Shown piece by piece: positions 7,711-23,935 of a stretch of DNA of 25,888 bases. The position numbers were made by a program, and so were the translations under genes. The stretch's first letter is position 1, and each line of letters starts with the position of its first letter. Under the pieces are notes generated by a model, which did not search any database, was not told the origin of the DNA, and was given only the letters and a program-made list of their open reading frames with translations. This DNA is from a virus, in the IMG/VR virus record IMGVR_UViG_3300022214_000017, positions 1 through 25,888 of that record; one strand, 5' to 3'.

Positions 7711-8115
7711 ATGAATAAACATAGAAATATTGATACAGATAGACTGACTGAAATAGCTTTAGAGTATTGTGATGAATGTATTGAAAATCATAATGAAGTA
7801 GCTACAGGATCAGGAAAGATAGTTCAGGTTAGAGATAGACATATCCCTACTATAAAGTATTTCTTGCTCCATTGGATTAGAAGAACTCACCCTGAATTCT
7901 ATATGCTTAAAAGAACTCAATTTTATGGAGCTTTAAGGGATGAAAACCATCCTTTATCGAACACTATAAAAAGCCTTGATGAAGATTTTAAGGCATTAGC
8001 AGAGGATATTGTAGCGAATGAAGGCAAGGGTATATTTTATGCGAAGAATCGTTTAGGAATGCATGACAGGCAGCAGCTTGAAACGAAGAATGTAGAGAAG
8101 TTCGATTTTGAATGA
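7711..8115 (+). CDS. terminase small subunit
   Basis: Probably recognises phage DNA and loads the packaging motor. The 134-aa product has a helical N-terminal half with RDRHIPTIKYFLLHWIRRTHPEF (DNA-binding-like) and a C-terminal FYAKNRLGMHDRQQLETKN, an ending I associate with Bacteroidota phage small terminases. Strongest support is position: an ATGA overlap with the large subunit. The ATG at 7711, one base after the HAD stop, is preferred over 7693, which would overlap the upstream gene. Confidence 0.75.
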   Translation: MNKHRNIDTDRLTEIALEYCDECIENHNEVATGSGKIVQVRDRHIPTIKYFLLHWIRRTHPEFYMLKRTQFYGALRDENHPLSNTIKSLDEDFKALAEDIVANEGKGIFYAKNRLGMHDRQQLETKNVEKFDFE

Positions 8116-9311
8116 GTACAATAAAGGGATATAAGCCCCATGATAATCAGCGCTTAATTCATAACAGCATCAATTCAGACGATGCTAAGTATTATGTTCT
8201 TTGCATTGGTCGACAGTTTGGTAAGACAATGCTCTGTATTAATCAGAATCTATATTGGGCCATAAATGATAAAGGGTCTAATATTGGATGGGTATCTCCT
8301 ATTTATAAGCAATCAAAAAGGGTTTACTCTGAACTAAAGAAAGCAACTTTAAGAAGTGGTCTATTTACCTACAATGATTCAGAGCTAATGATTAGAGGAT
8401 TCGATTCCACTATCACATTCTTTTCGGCTGAACGGCCTGATAATATCAGAGGTAATACCTTCGATTATTTGGTATGCGATGAGTTCGACTTCATGAAGGC
8501 CAATATTTGGGAAGAGATCCTTCAGCCAACTGTACTAGTCAAGGGCAAGAAGGTGGTATTTATCTCAACTCCTAAAGGAAAGCGCATGATGTACAGGCTA
8601 TCCTTGCTTAGACATCAAGATGATCGGTACAGATACTTCAAATTTACTTCCTACGATAACCCAATGATTGATCCCAGAGAGATTGATTCCATTAAATCAA
8701 CTGTACCTGACCACATCTTTAGACAGGAATACCTAGCTGAGTTCATCGATGGAGCTTCCGGGCTATTTAAGAACATCAGGGAATCAATTGGAACAGCTGA
8801 GCAAAGAGGTAAGATTTATGGAGGCCTCGATATAGGTAGAGCGGATGACTATACTGTACTAACCATTGGAACAAAGGAAGGCGGTATCTTGACAGTTCAA
8901 CGCTGGAGGCATGACGAATGGAGTAGTATCATTGATAAGGTAGCTAAAGTGATAAAGGAATATGGAGCTGTTACCTATGTCGAGGTGAATAATCAAGGGG
9001 ATGTATTTTATGAGATGCTCAGAAAGAAGGTGGGTAACCTTATAGAGCCATTCACCACTACATCGAAGAGCAAGCCTATAATGATAGAGGATCTAGCTGT
9101 ATCGTTTGAACAGTTCGAGCTATTAATCCCAAATGAGGAATACCTGATAGATGAGCTTGAAGCGTTTACCTATGTGTTTGATCCTAAAACTCGCCATGTA
9201 AAGTATTCAGCTCCTGAAGGTATTCACGATGACTGCGTTATGAGCATGGCATTATATAACCAAGCCAGGAAGCATTTAGCTATGAGAGGTAGATACTTTG
9301 CTAGTATATAA
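8112..9311 (+). CDS. terL: terminase large subunit (packaging ATPase and nuclease)
   Basis: Pumps DNA into the prohead and cuts it. ATPase domain: Walker A CIGRQFGKT (31-39), Walker B YLVCDEFDF (D123, E124) and the coupling motif STPKG (152-156). Nuclease domain: GGLDIGRADD (D240), YVEVNN (E291) and HDDCVMSMAL (D373, D374), the three acidic clusters of the RNase H-like fold. Length 399 aa is near the short end for TerL but all motifs are present. Coupled by ATGA to the small subunit. Confidence 0.95.
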   Translation: MSTIKGYKPHDNQRLIHNSINSDDAKYYVLCIGRQFGKTMLCINQNLYWAINDKGSNIGWVSPIYKQSKRVYSELKKATLRSGLFTYNDSELMIRGFDSTITFFSAERPDNIRGNTFDYLVCDEFDFMKANIWEEILQPTVLVKGKKVVFISTPKGKRMMYRLSLLRHQDDRYRYFKFTSYDNPMIDPREIDSIKSTVPDHIFRQEYLAEFIDGASGLFKNIRESIGTAEQRGKIYGGLDIGRADDYTVLTIGTKEGGILTVQRWRHDEWSSIIDKVAKVIKEYGAVTYVEVNNQGDVFYEMLRKKVGNLIEPFTTTSKSKPIMIEDLAVSFEQFELLIPNEEYLIDELEAFTYVFDPKTRHVKYSAPEGIHDDCVMSMALYNQARKHLAMRGRYFASI

Positions 9312-9381: not shown

Positions 9382-10026
9382 ATGGAATATAAACTCCCAA
9401 AGAAAGCTATTGATTTAAGAATTAATCATTTTAATCATATGGTTAATGTGGACCTTGAAAGGTTGGTCACTCCAATAGATAGAGCTGATTTCGTCGCTGA
9501 CTTTCTAGGTATCTCAAGAAAGAAGGCCTATACCTTTGATGCTAAATCAATCATTGAGATGTCTAATCACATCATCGATTTATACGCTGATATTCATGTG
9601 GGTAATCCTCCAAAGGAGATAACGTTAAACGGTACTATCTACGAGCTTGTGAATCCTGAGAAGGTAGGGGTTGGATGGCATGCTGACTTCTCAAAGATGG
9701 ATATCAATAGAGATCCCATTCAATTAGCTTGTATGTTCTATTTTCCAAAGGGTGCAATATATGGAGATGTCGATGAGAATGATAATCTAATCAATCCTAT
9801 TAAAAGTAGATATAACGATATTGGAGATCATATGCCATTGCAAGTATTTTTGGAGGCGTCTGCTTTTTTTTTGCGAAAAATAGAGCAATCGATGAGGCTA
9901 TCAATGGTAAAAAGAAAGTCGATGGAAAGAACAATAAAGATACTAAGCCGAATAGGTTTGCGTGGGAAGAGACCTTCGACCTTATCGCAAAAGAATACTA
10001 TGGAGGAGACTGGAATAAAGCAATGA
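9382..10026 (+). CDS. putative tail-assembly chaperone, unshifted frame (short form)
   Basis: Zero-frame reading of 214 aa. The first 164 codons, through LEASAFF at the T9 run, look like a normal folded protein (PPKEITLNGTIYELVNPEK, then DINRDPIQLACMFYFPKG, then GDHMPLQVFLEASAFF). That layout suggests a gpG-like tail-assembly chaperone that would fold around the tape-measure protein. After the run, the zero frame carries on for 50 codons with unusual codons (CGA, TCG, CTA, AGC) and no sensible protein pattern before a stop at 10024. The main coding frame therefore switches here. If the frame changes only part of the time, this is the major short product with a meaningless tail. Confidence 0.6.
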   Translation: MEYKLPKKAIDLRINHFNHMVNVDLERLVTPIDRADFVADFLGISRKKAYTFDAKSIIEMSNHIIDLYADIHVGNPPKEITLNGTIYELVNPEKVGVGWHADFSKMDINRDPIQLACMFYFPKGAIYGDVDENDNLINPIKSRYNDIGDHMPLQVFLEASAFFLRKIEQSMRLSMVKRKSMERTIKILSRIGLRGKRPSTLSQKNTMEETGIKQ

Positions 10027-10115
10027 GATTAAACATTTATGCATTCAGTCACCGGATGAAGTTCATTACACATAAGACAAAGAAGGAACTCACACAAGTA
10101 AAGAGGAGAAGATGA
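9382..10115 (+). CDS. putative tail-assembly chaperone, -1 frameshifted long form
   Basis: Composite of 9382-9873 in frame and 9873-10115 after a -1 shift, about 244 aa. The shifted part reads AKNRAIDEAINGKKK, a linker, then FAWEETFDLIAKEYYGGDWN and AFSHRMKFITHKTKKE, with ordinary codon use and no stop until TGA at 10113-10115, which overlaps the next start as ATGA. That overlap and the codon use show the shifted frame is genuinely coding. A gpG/gpGT pair is the best analogy: a short chaperone plus a frameshifted version with a C-terminal extension. The gene is not next to the tape measure here, which is unusual. A sequencing error in the T run is the main alternative; in that case this is simply the one true product. 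Confidence 0.65.
9864..9873 (+). other. slippery run (T9 then G) for -1 frameshift or polymerase slippage
   Basis: Nine T (9864-9872) then G. In the zero frame it reads GCT TTT TTT TTG, so T-TTT-TTT and T-TTT-TTG are both X-XXY-YYZ heptamers that permit a -1 slip. Nine identical bases would also allow RNA polymerase slippage. The reading frame changes by exactly -1 here. Confidence 0.6.
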
Positions 10116-10309
10116 GATACTATATTATTCATATAGGTAAAAATATGGAGGGATTAGCTAGAATATGCGCTGCTGATATCTCAGCTGAAGGTGACTCTTA
10201 TATAATGTATTACAACGATGATCCTTACTACTTAAGCATTGAGGAAGTAGACTATGATATCTTTGTTAATAATCATGTTATAGCATCAAATAAAATAAAT
10301 TTCAATTGA
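10112..10309 (+). CDS. small hypothetical protein, 65 aa
   Basis: Unrecognised. Acidic and Tyr-rich (IMYYNDDPYYLSIEEVDYD), probably a small beta protein. Its ATG overlaps the stop of the frameshifted chaperone form and its stop overlaps the next start (TTGA), so it is coupled both ways. Position suggests a head-tail or tail assembly part. Confidence 0.65.
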   Translation: MRYYIIHIGKNMEGLARICAADISAEGDSYIMYYNDDPYYLSIEEVDYDIFVNNHVIASNKINFN

Positions 10310-14809: not shown

Positions 14810-17029
14810 ATGGCTGCTGAAGAAATAATATTTAAAGTTGGGGTCGATACGGGTAATTCCGTTAATGATTTGTCGAAGGTTGAAAAGGGCCTGAATAATA
14901 TTGACAAATCAGCTGAATCTATTGGTACTGATGCTGCTTCTAGATTTGAAGCATTGAATAAGAAAGTTTCTTCAGGTACTATGACCATGAGGGAAAGTAC
15001 CAAAGCAATAAAGGAATATCAAACTATTGCTTTACAAGCTGGAAGAACTAGCCCAATCGGACAGGAGGCTATTGCTAGAGCTGCTGCATTACAGGATGAA
15101 ATTGCCGATTTAAGAAATGAAGTAACAAGGGCATCACATGATGGAGCTAATATGCAAGCAGCCCTACAATTAGGGTCAGGTATTGCAGCTGGTTACGGAG
15201 CTATGCAAGGAACGATGGCTTTGTTAGGAAGTGAAAGTGGAGCATTAGCTGAATCAATGCAAAAGCTCATGGCTGTTCAGACTGTACTTCAATCAATCGA
15301 ACAGATAAGAGCTATTCTTGAAAAGGAATCATTCTTAATGCAGAAAGCTAAAACGGCAGCTACATTTATTCAAACGGCAGCTACATCAGGACTAGCAGCT
15401 GCAACGGGTGGAGCTACGGGTGCAATGGCAGCTTTAAATTCAATAATGTTAGCTAATCCTGTTATGCTTATTGTGGCTGGAATTGCTGCACTTGTAGCTG
15501 GTATTGCATGGTTGGTATCAGAGGAGGAGAAAGCTGAAGCTCAGAATAATGCCATTACTAAATCCTATGAGCGAATGACTAGAGCAGCAGAGAATGCCTC
15601 TGCGAAGAGAAGGGAAGGAGCAGATACAGCTATTGAATTAGCTAGAATACAAGGTAAGAGCATCGAAGATATACATGATCTTGAAAGAAAAAATATTTTG
15701 GATACTGAGGATGAGAGAAAAAATACAATGAAGCGTGAGCGAGATACAATAAACCAAAGAAAGCAAGCGTATAAAAGAGCATTAGAAGAGGGTAACGAAG
15801 ATTTAGCTAAACAAATAAAGGATGAGATTAATCAGCACAGAGATAAATATAGGAATCTAGCTGCTCAAAATGGATCTTATAAAAATGAATTGAAGGTATT
15901 GGATGCACAATTCAATGAGGACCAAATCAAAGCTGATGAGGATGCAGAAAAGAAGAGAGAGGAGGCAGCTGAAAAGGCTAAAAAGAGAAGGGAGGATGCA
16001 GCCAAAAAGAGATTAGAACAAGCTCGATTGCTTGAGGATTTGATAATAGCAAATATTGAAAATGCTGACCAGAGAGCTTTAGCGCAAATGAATCTAAAGC
16101 ATGAGCGTGAGAGGGAAGAGATTATTACTAAGTATGGAAAGCAATCTCAATTAATAGCAGAGCTAGAAAAGAGCCAACAATCTGAGATGTTCAAGCTCAT
16201 GGAAGAGCAAGACAAAGCAGCCGATGCAAAACAAAAGGAGCAAGATGACAAAGCATCCGCTGAAGCGAAAGCGAAGCTAGATAAAGAACTAGCTGATCAG
16301 AAAGCTGGAGCCGAATTAAAGCTGTTACAAGCTGAAGAGAATTTCTACGCTGAACAAGAAGCAAAGAAGGAACTTGCTCTAATAGAGATGCAACAAGCTC
16401 TGAACAATACTGATCTTACTGAGAATCAAAAGCTACTTATCAAGGAGCAATATGCTGATAAAATAAAAGCTATTGATGACGATGTAACAAAGCATGAGCA
16501 AGATAATGCGAAGATGTTGAGTGATGCGAAGATGAAGATAGCTCAGGATTCATTACAGTTGATTCAGAATATTACTGAGCTATTTGGTAAGAAGAATGAG
16601 AAAGCTGCAAAGGTTGCATTTAACATTGATAAAGCTGCAAAGGTTGCATCTGCAACTATGGCCGGTATAGAAGGAGCAATCAATGCCTATAAAACAGCTC
16701 AGGGATCACCTATTACTGCATTACTTCCAGCTTATCCGGCTATTCAGGCTGGACTAGCAGCAGCATTTGCAGCGACTAATATCGCAAAGATTGCATCCGC
16801 TAAATTCCAATCCTCTGGAGGCGGTGGTGCATCAGCTGCTGCTGTATCTGCTCCATCACAAGCTGCTCCATCTGTACCTACTCCTGAAGCATCCACTACC
16901 TTAACGGCTAATCTTCCAGGAGGGGGGAATACAGGAGGCGGTAGCAAGGTGTATGTATTGGATTCTGATATTACAGCACAGCAAACCATGAGTCAAAAGG
17001 TGGAATCATTAGCTACATTTGGAGGCTAA
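14810..17029 (+). CDS. tape-measure protein, 739 aa
   Basis: Sets tail length and is probably ejected with the DNA. It shows N-terminal helices, two hydrophobic stretches (GSGIAAGYGAMQGTMALLG near 121-140 and ANPVMLIVAGIAALVAGIAW near 214-233), and a long charged coiled coil at about 240-600 rich in Ala/Glu/Lys. A Gly-rich link at about 665 leads to a C-terminal KVYVLDSDITAQQTMSQKVE, recalled from Bacteroidota tape measures. At the usual ~1.5 Angstrom per residue, the tail would be near 110 nm. It lies before, not after, the capsid genes. Confidence 0.88.
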   Translation: MAAEEIIFKVGVDTGNSVNDLSKVEKGLNNIDKSAESIGTDAASRFEALNKKVSSGTMTMRESTKAIKEYQTIALQAGRTSPIGQEAIARAAALQDEIADLRNEVTRASHDGANMQAALQLGSGIAAGYGAMQGTMALLGSESGALAESMQKLMAVQTVLQSIEQIRAILEKESFLMQKAKTAATFIQTAATSGLAAATGGATGAMAALNSIMLANPVMLIVAGIAALVAGIAWLVSEEEKAEAQNNAITKSYERMTRAAENASAKRREGADTAIELARIQGKSIEDIHDLERKNILDTEDERKNTMKRERDTINQRKQAYKRALEEGNEDLAKQIKDEINQHRDKYRNLAAQNGSYKNELKVLDAQFNEDQIKADEDAEKKREEAAEKAKKRREDAAKKRLEQARLLEDLIIANIENADQRALAQMNLKHEREREEIITKYGKQSQLIAELEKSQQSEMFKLMEEQDKAADAKQKEQDDKASAEAKAKLDKELADQKAGAELKLLQAEENFYAEQEAKKELALIEMQQALNNTDLTENQKLLIKEQYADKIKAIDDDVTKHEQDNAKMLSDAKMKIAQDSLQLIQNITELFGKKNEKAAKVAFNIDKAAKVASATMAGIEGAINAYKTAQGSPITALLPAYPAIQAGLAAAFAATNIAKIASAKFQSSGGGGASAAAVSAPSQAAPSVPTPEASTTLTANLPGGGNTGGGSKVYVLDSDITAQQTMSQKVESLATFGG

Positions 17030-19189: not shown

Positions 19190-19714
19190 ATGGCGTGTGA
19201 AATAACAAGCGGATATGACCTAGTATGTGATGCACCCGGTGGTGTAGATACATGGTATGCTTTCGCCGTGAAGGATAGTAACGGTGCGAGTAACTACGCA
19301 ACTCTAACCTATGAGGATGGAGAAGTTACAGCTTTAACATTAGGAGCAGGAAAGTATGCATGGCCTTTGAATGTTGAGATTGAAACATCTACTTTCACAG
19401 ATACAGCAGTTGGAGAAAGAGCAAACGCTTCTTATGGTCGAAGCCAATCAGCTACAGTTGTATTGCATGGCAATACTGCTGATATGATTGTACAGATCGA
19501 AGCATTTGCAACAGGCCGTCATGCTCTTATCGCAAAGTTGAATGATGGAACTTATGAATTGTTGTTCATGGAGAATGGCGCAAAGGTAACGGATGAAAGA
19601 ACTCCGGGGACTGCGTTTGAAGATATGAACGGGAATACTTTGACATTCACAGGAAAAGAAAGATTAAAAGCAATGAAGATTAGCAGCACGATTGTAAATG
19701 CTCTTCTTGATTAA
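19190..19714 (+). CDS. probable major tail-tube protein, 174 aa
   Basis: Likely the tube subunit. The small, beta-rich, mildly acidic sequence includes DAPGGVDTWYAFAVKD, GKYAWPLNVEIETSTFTD, then ASYGRSQSATVVLHGNTADM and TPGTAFEDMNGNTLTFTGKE. That pattern fits Bacteroidota phage tail-tube/structural proteins as I recall them. It lies between two hairpins as its own short transcription unit after the capsid gene, in line with high copy number. A head decoration protein is the alternative. Confidence 0.65.
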   Translation: MACEITSGYDLVCDAPGGVDTWYAFAVKDSNGASNYATLTYEDGEVTALTLGAGKYAWPLNVEIETSTFTDTAVGERANASYGRSQSATVVLHGNTADMIVQIEAFATGRHALIAKLNDGTYELLFMENGAKVTDERTPGTAFEDMNGNTLTFTGKERLKAMKISSTIVNALLD

Positions 19715-19982: not shown

Positions 19983-20291
19983 TTGCTCTTTAGATTTGTT
20001 TTGGATCAGGATGATTTCTATGAATACCTGATTTATTTAACAGATTTAAGCGTTGCCCTAGCTAGATATAATCTATTTGAACTTGAAGAAGGTGTAGATG
20101 TAGATTTTAAGTTTGTTGGGGACTATTTATATGAAGTTTATCAGATGCCTGAAGGGGACTCTGTAGATTATACACTAGGGGTAAAAGTTGAAAATGGAAA
20201 GATGCGACTTTTAGAGGGTGAAGTAATCCCTACTCCTACATTTGAACCGAATACTGAAACACCAATATATGATCCGAACGATATTCCGTGA
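19983..20291 (+). CDS. small structural protein, likely needing a frame change or TTG start
   Basis: Unrecognised; likely a head part because the portal follows. As one frame it must start at a TTG at 19983, since a stop lies at 19977, giving LLFRFVLDQDDFYEYL, a long helix and a Pro/Thr-rich tail. A different frame starting with ATG at 19903 reads MILLQQNTTNQIVVTLNELK then SDLLPENCSLDLFW and stops at 20031. Joining the two near 19990-20003 gives one smooth N-terminus (PENCSL, then FVLDQDDFYEY), as a -1 change. So the true gene may be 19903-20291 with a frameshift or a sequencing indel. The 3' end overlaps the portal start by 23 bp. Confidence 0.5.
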   Translation: MLFRFVLDQDDFYEYLIYLTDLSVALARYNLFELEEGVDVDFKFVGDYLYEVYQMPEGDSVDYTLGVKVENGKMRLLEGEVIPTPTFEPNTETPIYDPNDIP

Positions 20292-22140
20292 AGCTAAGCA
20301 GCCTCAACCAGTTGAAAAAGTAGATAATAAGAGTGGCCGTATTAATTGGGGCGAGGACAATTTATATGGACAATTCCTTGTTGGTTTGTATCAAGACAAT
20401 CCAGTCCATTCGGGTATAGTTAACCAAAAAGTTAAGTTCATCACAGCTGGAGGTATTGAAGTGAATACTGAGGAGCAGATGGATAATGGTAGGTCACCTT
20501 ATAATTTAAAAGAGGTGGTGGATATTATCTGCCGTGATAATGAGATAGCTGATGCTTATGCTGTACTATTTAAGAAGGATTTAGTAACTGGAAGATGGGC
20601 AGCGTTTCCTGTAGATTTTGAGCTAGTAAGACAAACGGAAAGCGGAGTATATTTTGAGGTATCTGAGGATTGGTCCAAGCCAAAGCAAGATCCAATTAAA
20701 ACGGGCTTTAGAAAATATAAGAACATCCTCAGGATGAATGCGGAGGATACTGAGGTATTGATGTACAATATCACAAGGCCAAAGCAAAGAAAGATTAGTG
20801 GAAAGAAGGAGCTTACTGCTAACTATTATGCTATACCTGGTTATTCAGGAGCTATTACTTCCATCATGGCCGGTATTGAAATGGATTATTTCACTTACTC
20901 TGAGGTAGTAAACAGCTACAAAGGAGGAGCTGTTATAGCTTTAAACAATGGAGTACCTGAAACGGAAGAGGAAGAAGATAAGATCATCAGCAGAATCAAA
21001 AGAGATGCTACAGATAGAAACCTTCAGGGTGGATTATCTATCTTATTTAGTGAGGGTAAAGATCAAGCTCCAGAGATTCATCAGTTAAATGGTAACGATC
21101 TTGATAAAAGATACATTGAATCGAATAAAGAGATCCTTCGCAAGATAATGATAGCTCATTCAGTTATTTCTCCGGCATTGTTTGGGGTGATGTCTGAAAG
21201 TTTATTCGGATCAAAGGAAGAGATGGAGGTAGCTTATAAACTATTCCAAGAAAACTACGCTAAGTATCGTCAGGAAAAGATTTCTGAGGAGTTTAATTGG
21301 GCATGGCAACGATTGAACAGAGAAGAGTTAGGAATGAAATTTAACGATTATATCCTTAACCTAGAGCAGAACATCGAAGAAACTAATAAGACAACAGCAG
21401 CATTAAATAAAATGTCTCCTGATTTAGCGAATAAGGTACTTGAGAATCTAACAATTAACGAGATTAGAACGTTAGCACAGTTAGCTCCGTTGCCGAATGG
21501 TGATATTATCCCATCTCAGGCGGTTGCTCCAGCTGCATTCAGCGAAGAAGACCCTGTGCTAGTTGAATTCTCAAAGGTTGGAATCAGTAAAGAAGATGTT
21601 ATTATTTTAGACTCAAGGGAATATACATCATTTGAAGATAACGAAGAGGATTTCAAGAGGTCATTCTTTAAGGATCGTCATGCTATGACTGTAACAGATG
21701 ACGATAGAAATATCTTACAGATGATAAAGAATGGCGAGAGCTATGATTCAATCAGTAAGGCCATTGGTAAAGGTGGAGTATATCTATCGAAGAGATTATT
21801 CCTATTGAAGGATAATGGATTTGTAGATGGATGGGAATTAACTGAGAAAGGATTAAGAGAATCTACTGTAATAACTGAGATAGAGGTATTATATTCCTAT
21901 GAAAAGAAACCCGGTATATCAGGTCCTGATGTGTTACCTGATGGAAGGACTAGACCATTTTGCAAGGTTCTAGTTGAAACAAATAAGCTATATAGCAGAG
22001 CAGAGATAGATCAAATCAGTTCAAATGTTGAGCGTGATGTATGGCTATATAGAGGCGGTTGGTATCGTAACCCAACAACTGAAAGAAATACTCCTTCATG
22101 TCGACATATTTGGAAACAGAATATAGTTACTAGACGATGA
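20269..22140 (+). CDS. portal protein fused to winged-helix and minor-head C-terminal domains
   Basis: Forms the DNA entry ring. Start at ATG 20269 (623 aa); the open frame reaches a TTG at 20242. Residues 1 to ~400 are portal: WGEDNLYGQFLVGLYQDNPV, AYAVLFKKD, EMDYFTYSEVVNSYKGG, NKEILRKIMIAHSVISPALF and SLFGSKEEMEVAYKLF. About 474-535 looks like a winged helix (DDRNILQMIKNGESYDSISK, then LKDNGFVDGWELTEKG). The end (about 551-615), PDGRTRPFCKVLV, YSRAEIDQIS, DVWLYRGGWYRNP and TPSCRHIW, is the MuF-type minor-head end module, with Cys/His that could bind metal. These are usually separate genes. Coupled by ATGA to the fibre gene. Confidence 0.8.
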   Translation: MIRTIFREAKQPQPVEKVDNKSGRINWGEDNLYGQFLVGLYQDNPVHSGIVNQKVKFITAGGIEVNTEEQMDNGRSPYNLKEVVDIICRDNEIADAYAVLFKKDLVTGRWAAFPVDFELVRQTESGVYFEVSEDWSKPKQDPIKTGFRKYKNILRMNAEDTEVLMYNITRPKQRKISGKKELTANYYAIPGYSGAITSIMAGIEMDYFTYSEVVNSYKGGAVIALNNGVPETEEEEDKIISRIKRDATDRNLQGGLSILFSEGKDQAPEIHQLNGNDLDKRYIESNKEILRKIMIAHSVISPALFGVMSESLFGSKEEMEVAYKLFQENYAKYRQEKISEEFNWAWQRLNREELGMKFNDYILNLEQNIEETNKTTAALNKMSPDLANKVLENLTINEIRTLAQLAPLPNGDIIPSQAVAPAAFSEEDPVLVEFSKVGISKEDVIILDSREYTSFEDNEEDFKRSFFKDRHAMTVTDDDRNILQMIKNGESYDSISKAIGKGGVYLSKRLFLLKDNGFVDGWELTEKGLRESTVITEIEVLYSYEKKPGISGPDVLPDGRTRPFCKVLVETNKLYSRAEIDQISSNVERDVWLYRGGWYRNPTTERNTPSCRHIWKQNIVTRR

Positions 22141-23428: not shown

Positions 23429-23935
23429 ATGACCAGCTTCCTTGTTGATATAGCAACTATAAAGAAAATAGGATTCGTAAATAAAAACGTTGATGATCCG
23501 ATTATTTCTGTAACTTTGAGAAGGGTACAGGATACAGTAATGAAGCCTATTCTGGGGACATCATTCTATAATAGACTGATTGAAGGTATATCTAATGAGG
23601 ATTTGAACTCTGATGAAACCGATCTTTTGAATAACTATATTACTCCTTGTATAGTAGCAGCTGTAGATTATAGGATAATTAATGCTTTGACTTATGAAAC
23701 TAGATCCAAAACAGTGGGAACTAGCAGAGATGAGCATATGAATCCTGTAACTATTGAAGAGAAGCATATCAGAGAAGAGGATTTAAAGCGTGATTTTGAA
23801 GTATATCGAAAGGCTTTAGTTGGTTTCTTGTGTGATAATGACAATCTCTTTCCTGAATACAAGGATTTCTCAACAGATGATGGATTCCTTGCACCCGATA
23901 AAGGTAAAACAAGAAATAGAATTAGATTCAAATGA
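23429..23935 (+). CDS. head-tail adaptor-like protein, 168 aa
   Basis: Likely an HK97 gp6-like connector under the portal. It shows KKIGFVNKNVDDPIISVTLR and VQDTVMKPILGTSFYNRL, helical and with the PxLGxxFY turn seen in Bacteroidota adaptor proteins (DUF6712-type, from memory), then NNYITPCIVAAVDYRI and a charged tail KGKTRNRIRFK. A gap of 33 bases precedes it and ATGA follows. Confidence 0.65.
   Translation: MTSFLVDIATIKKIGFVNKNVDDPIISVTLRRVQDTVMKPILGTSFYNRLIEGISNEDLNSDETDLLNNYITPCIVAAVDYRIINALTYETRSKTVGTSRDEHMNPVTIEEKHIREEDLKRDFEVYRKALVGFLCDNDNLFPEYKDFSTDDGFLAPDKGKTRNRIRFK

Follow-up and report, generated by a model that had tools for sequence, protein, structure and literature searches.

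The window, meaning the whole stretch of DNA analysed, is a 25,888-base IMG/VR record in which the gene for the terminase large subunit (TerL) is followed by an open reading frame with an internal frame break; the features described in this paragraph lie on the plus strand. TerL occupies positions 8112–9311 and matches phrog_2 (E 8e-45) and Terminase_6N (E 5e-17). The zero-frame ORF behind it (9382–10026) predicts a short product of 214 aa, whose last 51 codons form a tail that is less conserved than the -1 frame. At 9864–9872 this ORF runs through nine consecutive T, the putative recoding site, where the zero frame reads GCT TTT TTT TTG CGA (...ASA FF L RKIEQ...) and the -1 frame reads TTT TTT TTT GCG AAA. 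Upstream lies a 163-aa N domain (9382–9870) that would be common to both products, ends with the second Phe of the slip site, and is recognisable from its conservation in relatives, its AlphaFold model and its homology to a second clade described below. From 9870 the -1 frame continues as FAKNRAIDEA...KRRR to a TGA at 10113–10115 and encodes an 81-aa C domain (9870–10115) comprising a helix, a disordered linker and a three-helix region with a conserved Trp; it is kept in relatives, was modelled, and bears a weak likeness to its counterpart in the second clade. A -1 shift would thus yield a long product of 244 aa (9382–10115; ...ASA FFF AKNR...). As an earlier reading of the sequence alone had noted, the stop of the shifted frame overlaps the start of the next gene (10112–10309) as ATGA, with the ATG at 10112. 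Further downstream, the tape measure protein (14810–17029) was identified by several tape-measure PHROGs, with E values down to 7e-6.

The nine-T run is the only run of at least eight T or A in the window, in whose genes the two Phe codons are about equally frequent (TTT 154 vs TTC 138). One added T (T10) would fuse the two frames. The sequence-only reading had expected a continuous gene from either T8 or T10; this applies to T10 only, since T8 leads into the +1 frame, which in the window stops after three codons.

In relatives of the window gene the frame break recurs in the same position. Among IMG/VR relatives with an N part of 76–91% identity, 12 out of 12 contained GCTTTTTTTTTGCGAAAA together with the -1 domain. 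We then widened this set, hereafter clade 1, by a TerL search and subsequently by a profile of distant N domains. Exactly nine T in the register NNT TTT TTT TTN were found in all 167 clade-1 loci with the site, which represent 96 distinct 120-nt sequences around it, some contigs having been fetched more than once. The -1 domain was complete in 162 of the 167, and the other five contigs end inside or just after it. While the codon preceding the run varies between Ala, Ser, Gly and Asn, its third base is always T. In an alignment of 49 diverse N domains, an invariant third base occurred in 3 of 160 ungapped codon columns, namely the three run codons; in the C region, read in the -1 frame, no third base is invariant except the ninth T and that of one Trp codon. 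Elsewhere in 529 kb of related DNA, with the site itself excluded, we counted one T9 and two A9. The frame break is beyond chance, because T9 is kept at the same place in related loci.

Two loci from metagenome 3300008114 were irregular, probably owing to an assembly fault or a deletion: L013 has an additional frame break in the N domain (at about 4340), and in L057 (3680–4256) a stretch from the last part of the N domain through the T run into the first part of the C domain is missing. In some relatives (L026, L027, L035–L040 and L046), TerL and the recoded gene are separated by 0.4–2.3 kb. The stretch past terL in L027 (2704–4130) contains two ORFs, the second one resembling a methyltransferase on visual inspection, and the DNA between the two genes is possibly an insertion hot spot.

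Structure comparison led to a second, very distant clade. In BFVD, the AlphaFold N-domain model matched protein I6R9M9 of Nonlabens phage P12024S (E 2e-6), and the C-domain model gave a weak match to I6S6N6 from that phage (E 1.3). In P12024S (JQ823122), gp38 begins where TerL ends, with gp39 in the -1 frame relative to it; nine T stand at 23578–23586, and upstream the gp39 frame has no stop as far as 23570. The two gene parts (phrog_32199 and phrog_38404, both of unknown function) are annotated as separate hypothetical genes in the cultured flavobacterial phages P12024S/L, which belong to this clade. The annotated start of gp39 (23663–23830 in L195) is probably artificial, given that the frame is open to the T9 at 23578. 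Gp38/gp39 is a homologous gene in the same place, with T9 and a C part in the -1 frame; it differs from the window gene in its annotation as two genes and in the register of its run, which is one base off.

Among the 63 clade-2 loci fetched with gp38, the run was T9 in 62 and T10 in one (L207), which has the same frame break as the rest of the clade. All 63 share the register NTT TTT TTT TAY CAT TTA G. In 59 of them the -1 domain (KWGWY...) is present in full; in the remaining four it is truncated by the contig end. Over their whole length the N domains of the two clades are homologous (hhalign 98.5%, E 2e-15), and both end in FF at the slip; the C domains are weakly similar. The register of the run thus differs by one base between the clades while its length stays nine. 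Window and P12024S also share the same circular gene order of primase, VRR-NUC, HK97 gp10-like protein, protease, capsid, tail tube-like protein and portal, the names HK97 gp10-like and tail tube-like being our own reading of the sequences. The window's portal gene (20242–22140; 632 aa) has a long extension at its C terminus, with a weak match to a transcriptional-regulator PHROG (E 0.056), and may be a fusion. The phage group is large and mostly uncultured, and its two cultured members infect a flavobacterium. Searching INPHARED by tblastn with N domains from the window and from clade 1 gave no match; among genome contigs no relatives of the N domain were found, TerL matches reached 26–33% identity, and no prophage or host was identified.

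Given that homopolymers are error-prone and that one extra T fuses the frames, we considered an undercalled T10 in a truly continuous gene. This is exceedingly improbable and is refuted as far as assemblies can refute it: T9 was present in 167 + 62 loci from many metagenomes as well as in cultured P12024S, the position of the zero-frame stop is kept within subclades, and T10 with the flank of the window was absent from IMG/VR when searched as a DNA pattern (T10 after GC, or T9 after GCA, GCC or GCG). A decayed gene, or phase variation at the DNA level through slipped-strand mispairing, is also very improbable. Runs of nine T are mutable in principle, but the fused T10 state was seen in 0 of 230 loci, the sole T10 (L207) keeps its frame break, and both gene parts are under selection as protein. 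The frame break itself is real and conserved, and selection acts on the run as well as on the -1 frame.

Among relatives, conservation is higher in the -1 frame than in the zero-frame tail. The overlap shows the coding position pattern of the -1 frame, with partly constrained third positions (pairwise difference 0.17–0.30 vs 0.32–0.44 upstream). The tail stays free of stops for somewhat longer than expected from synonymous shuffling (P 0.005–0.29, depending on lineage), a weak hint that selection keeps it open. Dual coding found mild support at best, and the tail is therefore treated as mostly filler. In clade 1, the 30 nt past the run (9873–9902 in the window) vary little at all codon positions, beyond what protein coding needs, and may be a regulatory element.

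The N and C halves were modelled separately. The N-domain model was confident (pLDDT 92.4, pTM 0.85); that of the C domain (pLDDT 73) shows a helix, a disordered linker, which is acidic in many relatives, and a small helical region. Searches of Pfam, PHROGs, NCBIfam and PDB gave no informative match for the recoded gene, nor did a PDB structure search return a match, and chaperone matches in BFVD were weak (E 0.48 for the N domain, E 6–9 for the C domain). A profile search of PDB with the N alignment hit clostridial toxin A repeat regions over some 33 residues that form a hairpin-like motif; this was judged a chance similarity to repeats. A 243-aa BFVD entry matching both halves (A0A6J7WJY4) was dropped as a candidate one-frame version, because its length also fits clade-2 zero-frame ORFs.

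Together, these observations strongly indicate that 9382–10115 is a programmed recoding gene. The 214-aa zero-frame protein would make up the bulk of expression, and a fraction would be shifted to the -1 frame at T9 to give a 244-aa protein with a different, conserved helical C-terminal domain. Because even very distant relatives retain the nine-T run, synthesis of a short and a long protein by programmed slip is almost certain. We infer from sequence that both proteins are made, and likewise the level of the slip, the ratio of the products and their role; that the long form is in the minority is our assumption. The sequence-only reading had proposed such a short/long pair from a -1 frame change. 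Its own check, looking for the break in related phages, came out positive in both clades, and T9 and the -1 domain there strongly support the proposal.

Two levels of slippage could produce this pair. In the first, RNA polymerase would add one U, so that a U10 mRNA joins the frames; in the second, the ribosome would slip by -1 on U_UUU_UUU, as the main alternative or as a contributor. Both signatures can be read from the sequence. An uninterrupted run of about nine A/T followed by a conserved extension in the shifted frame is as predicted for transcriptional slippage, and selection against A/T runs appears at length nine in many bacteria (PMC1088944). A zero-frame heptamer of the X_XXY_YYZ type, as used in ribosomal frameshifting, is also present: T_TTT_TTT (9864–9870), on which tandem re-pairing of both tRNAs after a -1 shift could be perfect, stands in the zero frame of both clades. 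The heptamer initially proposed, T_TTT_TTG, is indeed in frame at 9867–9873; it does not occur in clade 2, where TAT follows.

Stimulators, either a downstream structure or an upstream Shine-Dalgarno (SD) sequence, are usual though not obligatory in programmed -1 ribosomal frameshifting. No pseudoknot-free downstream RNA structure was found (mean z -0.21 ± 0.21 for 41 sequences and -0.08 ± 0.38 for 11), and no conserved upstream SD-like element was found, SD-like 4-mers occurring in 14 of 97 and 4 of 63 sequences. Since these tests gave no structure signal and no conserved SD-like element, all nine T are kept, and the register moves while the length stays, we lean toward the view that the slip comes from RNA polymerase adding one U. 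The fixed ninth T of clade 1 is a further point for polymerase slippage; it doubles as second base of a Leu or Phe codon in the zero frame, which counts against the argument from run length. In clade 2, the extra T could stem from hydrophobic (NTT) and Tyr (TAT) codons instead of run length.

Ribosomal frameshifting on U_UUU_UUU, with U_UUU_UUG in addition in the window clade and no contribution from polymerase, is a serious possibility that we hold to be somewhat doubtful. It would give the same products with the same role, and as T_TTT_TTT is in frame in both clades, it would account for the core claim, too. The well-known recoding of tail chaperones is ribosomal (PMC5009743), and the very low variation in the 30 nt past the run in clade 1 could mark a stimulator. 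Against this, seven T would suffice for the ribosome, yet nine are kept in two registers; neither a pseudoknot-free structure nor a conserved SD-like element was detected; and heptamers without stimulators frameshift just 2–10 times above background in E. coli (PMC4066793). Hence, although the sequence-only reading had assumed a ribosomal slip and in-frame heptamers do exist, the data do not show one and lean toward a transcriptional event.

Polymerase slippage of this kind has parallels. In Shigella flexneri mxiE, two overlapping ORFs are joined by one non-templated nucleotide inserted at a run of U, which gives a longer product (PMC1088944); mxiE is a plasmid-borne activator gene and not a phage gene, and slippage in the window is predicted from sequence. 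Thermus dnaX and IS elements likewise obtain two products from a nine-base A or T run (PMC1088944), but these are cellular or IS genes, and slippage in dnaX yields the shorter product.

With regard to function, the pair would act like gpG/gpGT, with the common N domain in excess and a minority long form carrying a second binding domain. By analogy, we regard a role as tail assembly chaperones as fairly probable. In lambda, gpG and gpGT are a short/long pair with a shared N domain, encoded upstream of the tape measure gene (PMC5009743). The window gene resembles them as a late gene for a short protein and a -1 extended one with an added small domain. At the sequence level it would likewise make two products sharing an N domain via a programmed frameshift, the C domain being small, helical and set behind a linker, in a late operon ahead of the tape measure. 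It differs in its T9 slip site, which is not the lambda heptamer, in its long zero-frame tail and in the lack of detectable homology: in low-power single-sequence tests, neither lambda gpG/gpT nor T4 gp26/gp51 showed sequence homology, and Pfam, PHROGs and NCBIfam linked it to no known chaperone. With no homology to known tail chaperones found, the chaperone role is an inferred one, and as no family or structure match was obtained, the gene is not classed as a member. The gpG/gpGT-like role suggested by the sequence-only reading thus fits in architecture but could not be backed by homology.

The position of the gene is a further difference from lambda. It does not lie directly between tail tube and tape measure, but follows terL several genes before the tape measure, which begins 4.9 kb further on; the probable gene for the tail tube comes after that for the capsid, at 19190. 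This unusual place, already remarked on at the outset, is a trait of the phage group, although in some relatives 0.2–2.3 kb of other DNA come after terL. The position next to terL, together with the missing homology to known tail chaperones in the low-power tests, would suit a real recoded pair that serves head assembly or packaging and not the tail. We consider this unlikely. Other DNA separates the gene from terL in some relatives, and the two therefore form no fixed packaging pair; moreover, pairs of a short form and a form lengthened by a small helical extension are typical of tail chaperones.

Taken as a whole, this reading of the locus as a recoded gene, with polymerase slippage and a chaperone-like pair as its more tentative parts, is quite probable. 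Tentatively, and with a good deal of doubt, we further propose that this phage group sets its short/long tail chaperone ratio by RNA-polymerase slippage at a fixed T9, using a chaperone family unrelated in sequence to known ones.

Phage tail assembly is controlled by short/long protein ratios that result from recoding, which in the well-known cases is ribosomal. Among the open-access papers we searched, none reported recoding in this phage group, in which the nine-T run persists across relatives with N domains less than 20% identical. The finding would also correct annotation: in P12024S the -1 domain stands as a hypothetical gene of its own, and elsewhere gene callers would overlook it. If it is true that RNA polymerase slips at the run, these phages would have a second route to the same assembly control.
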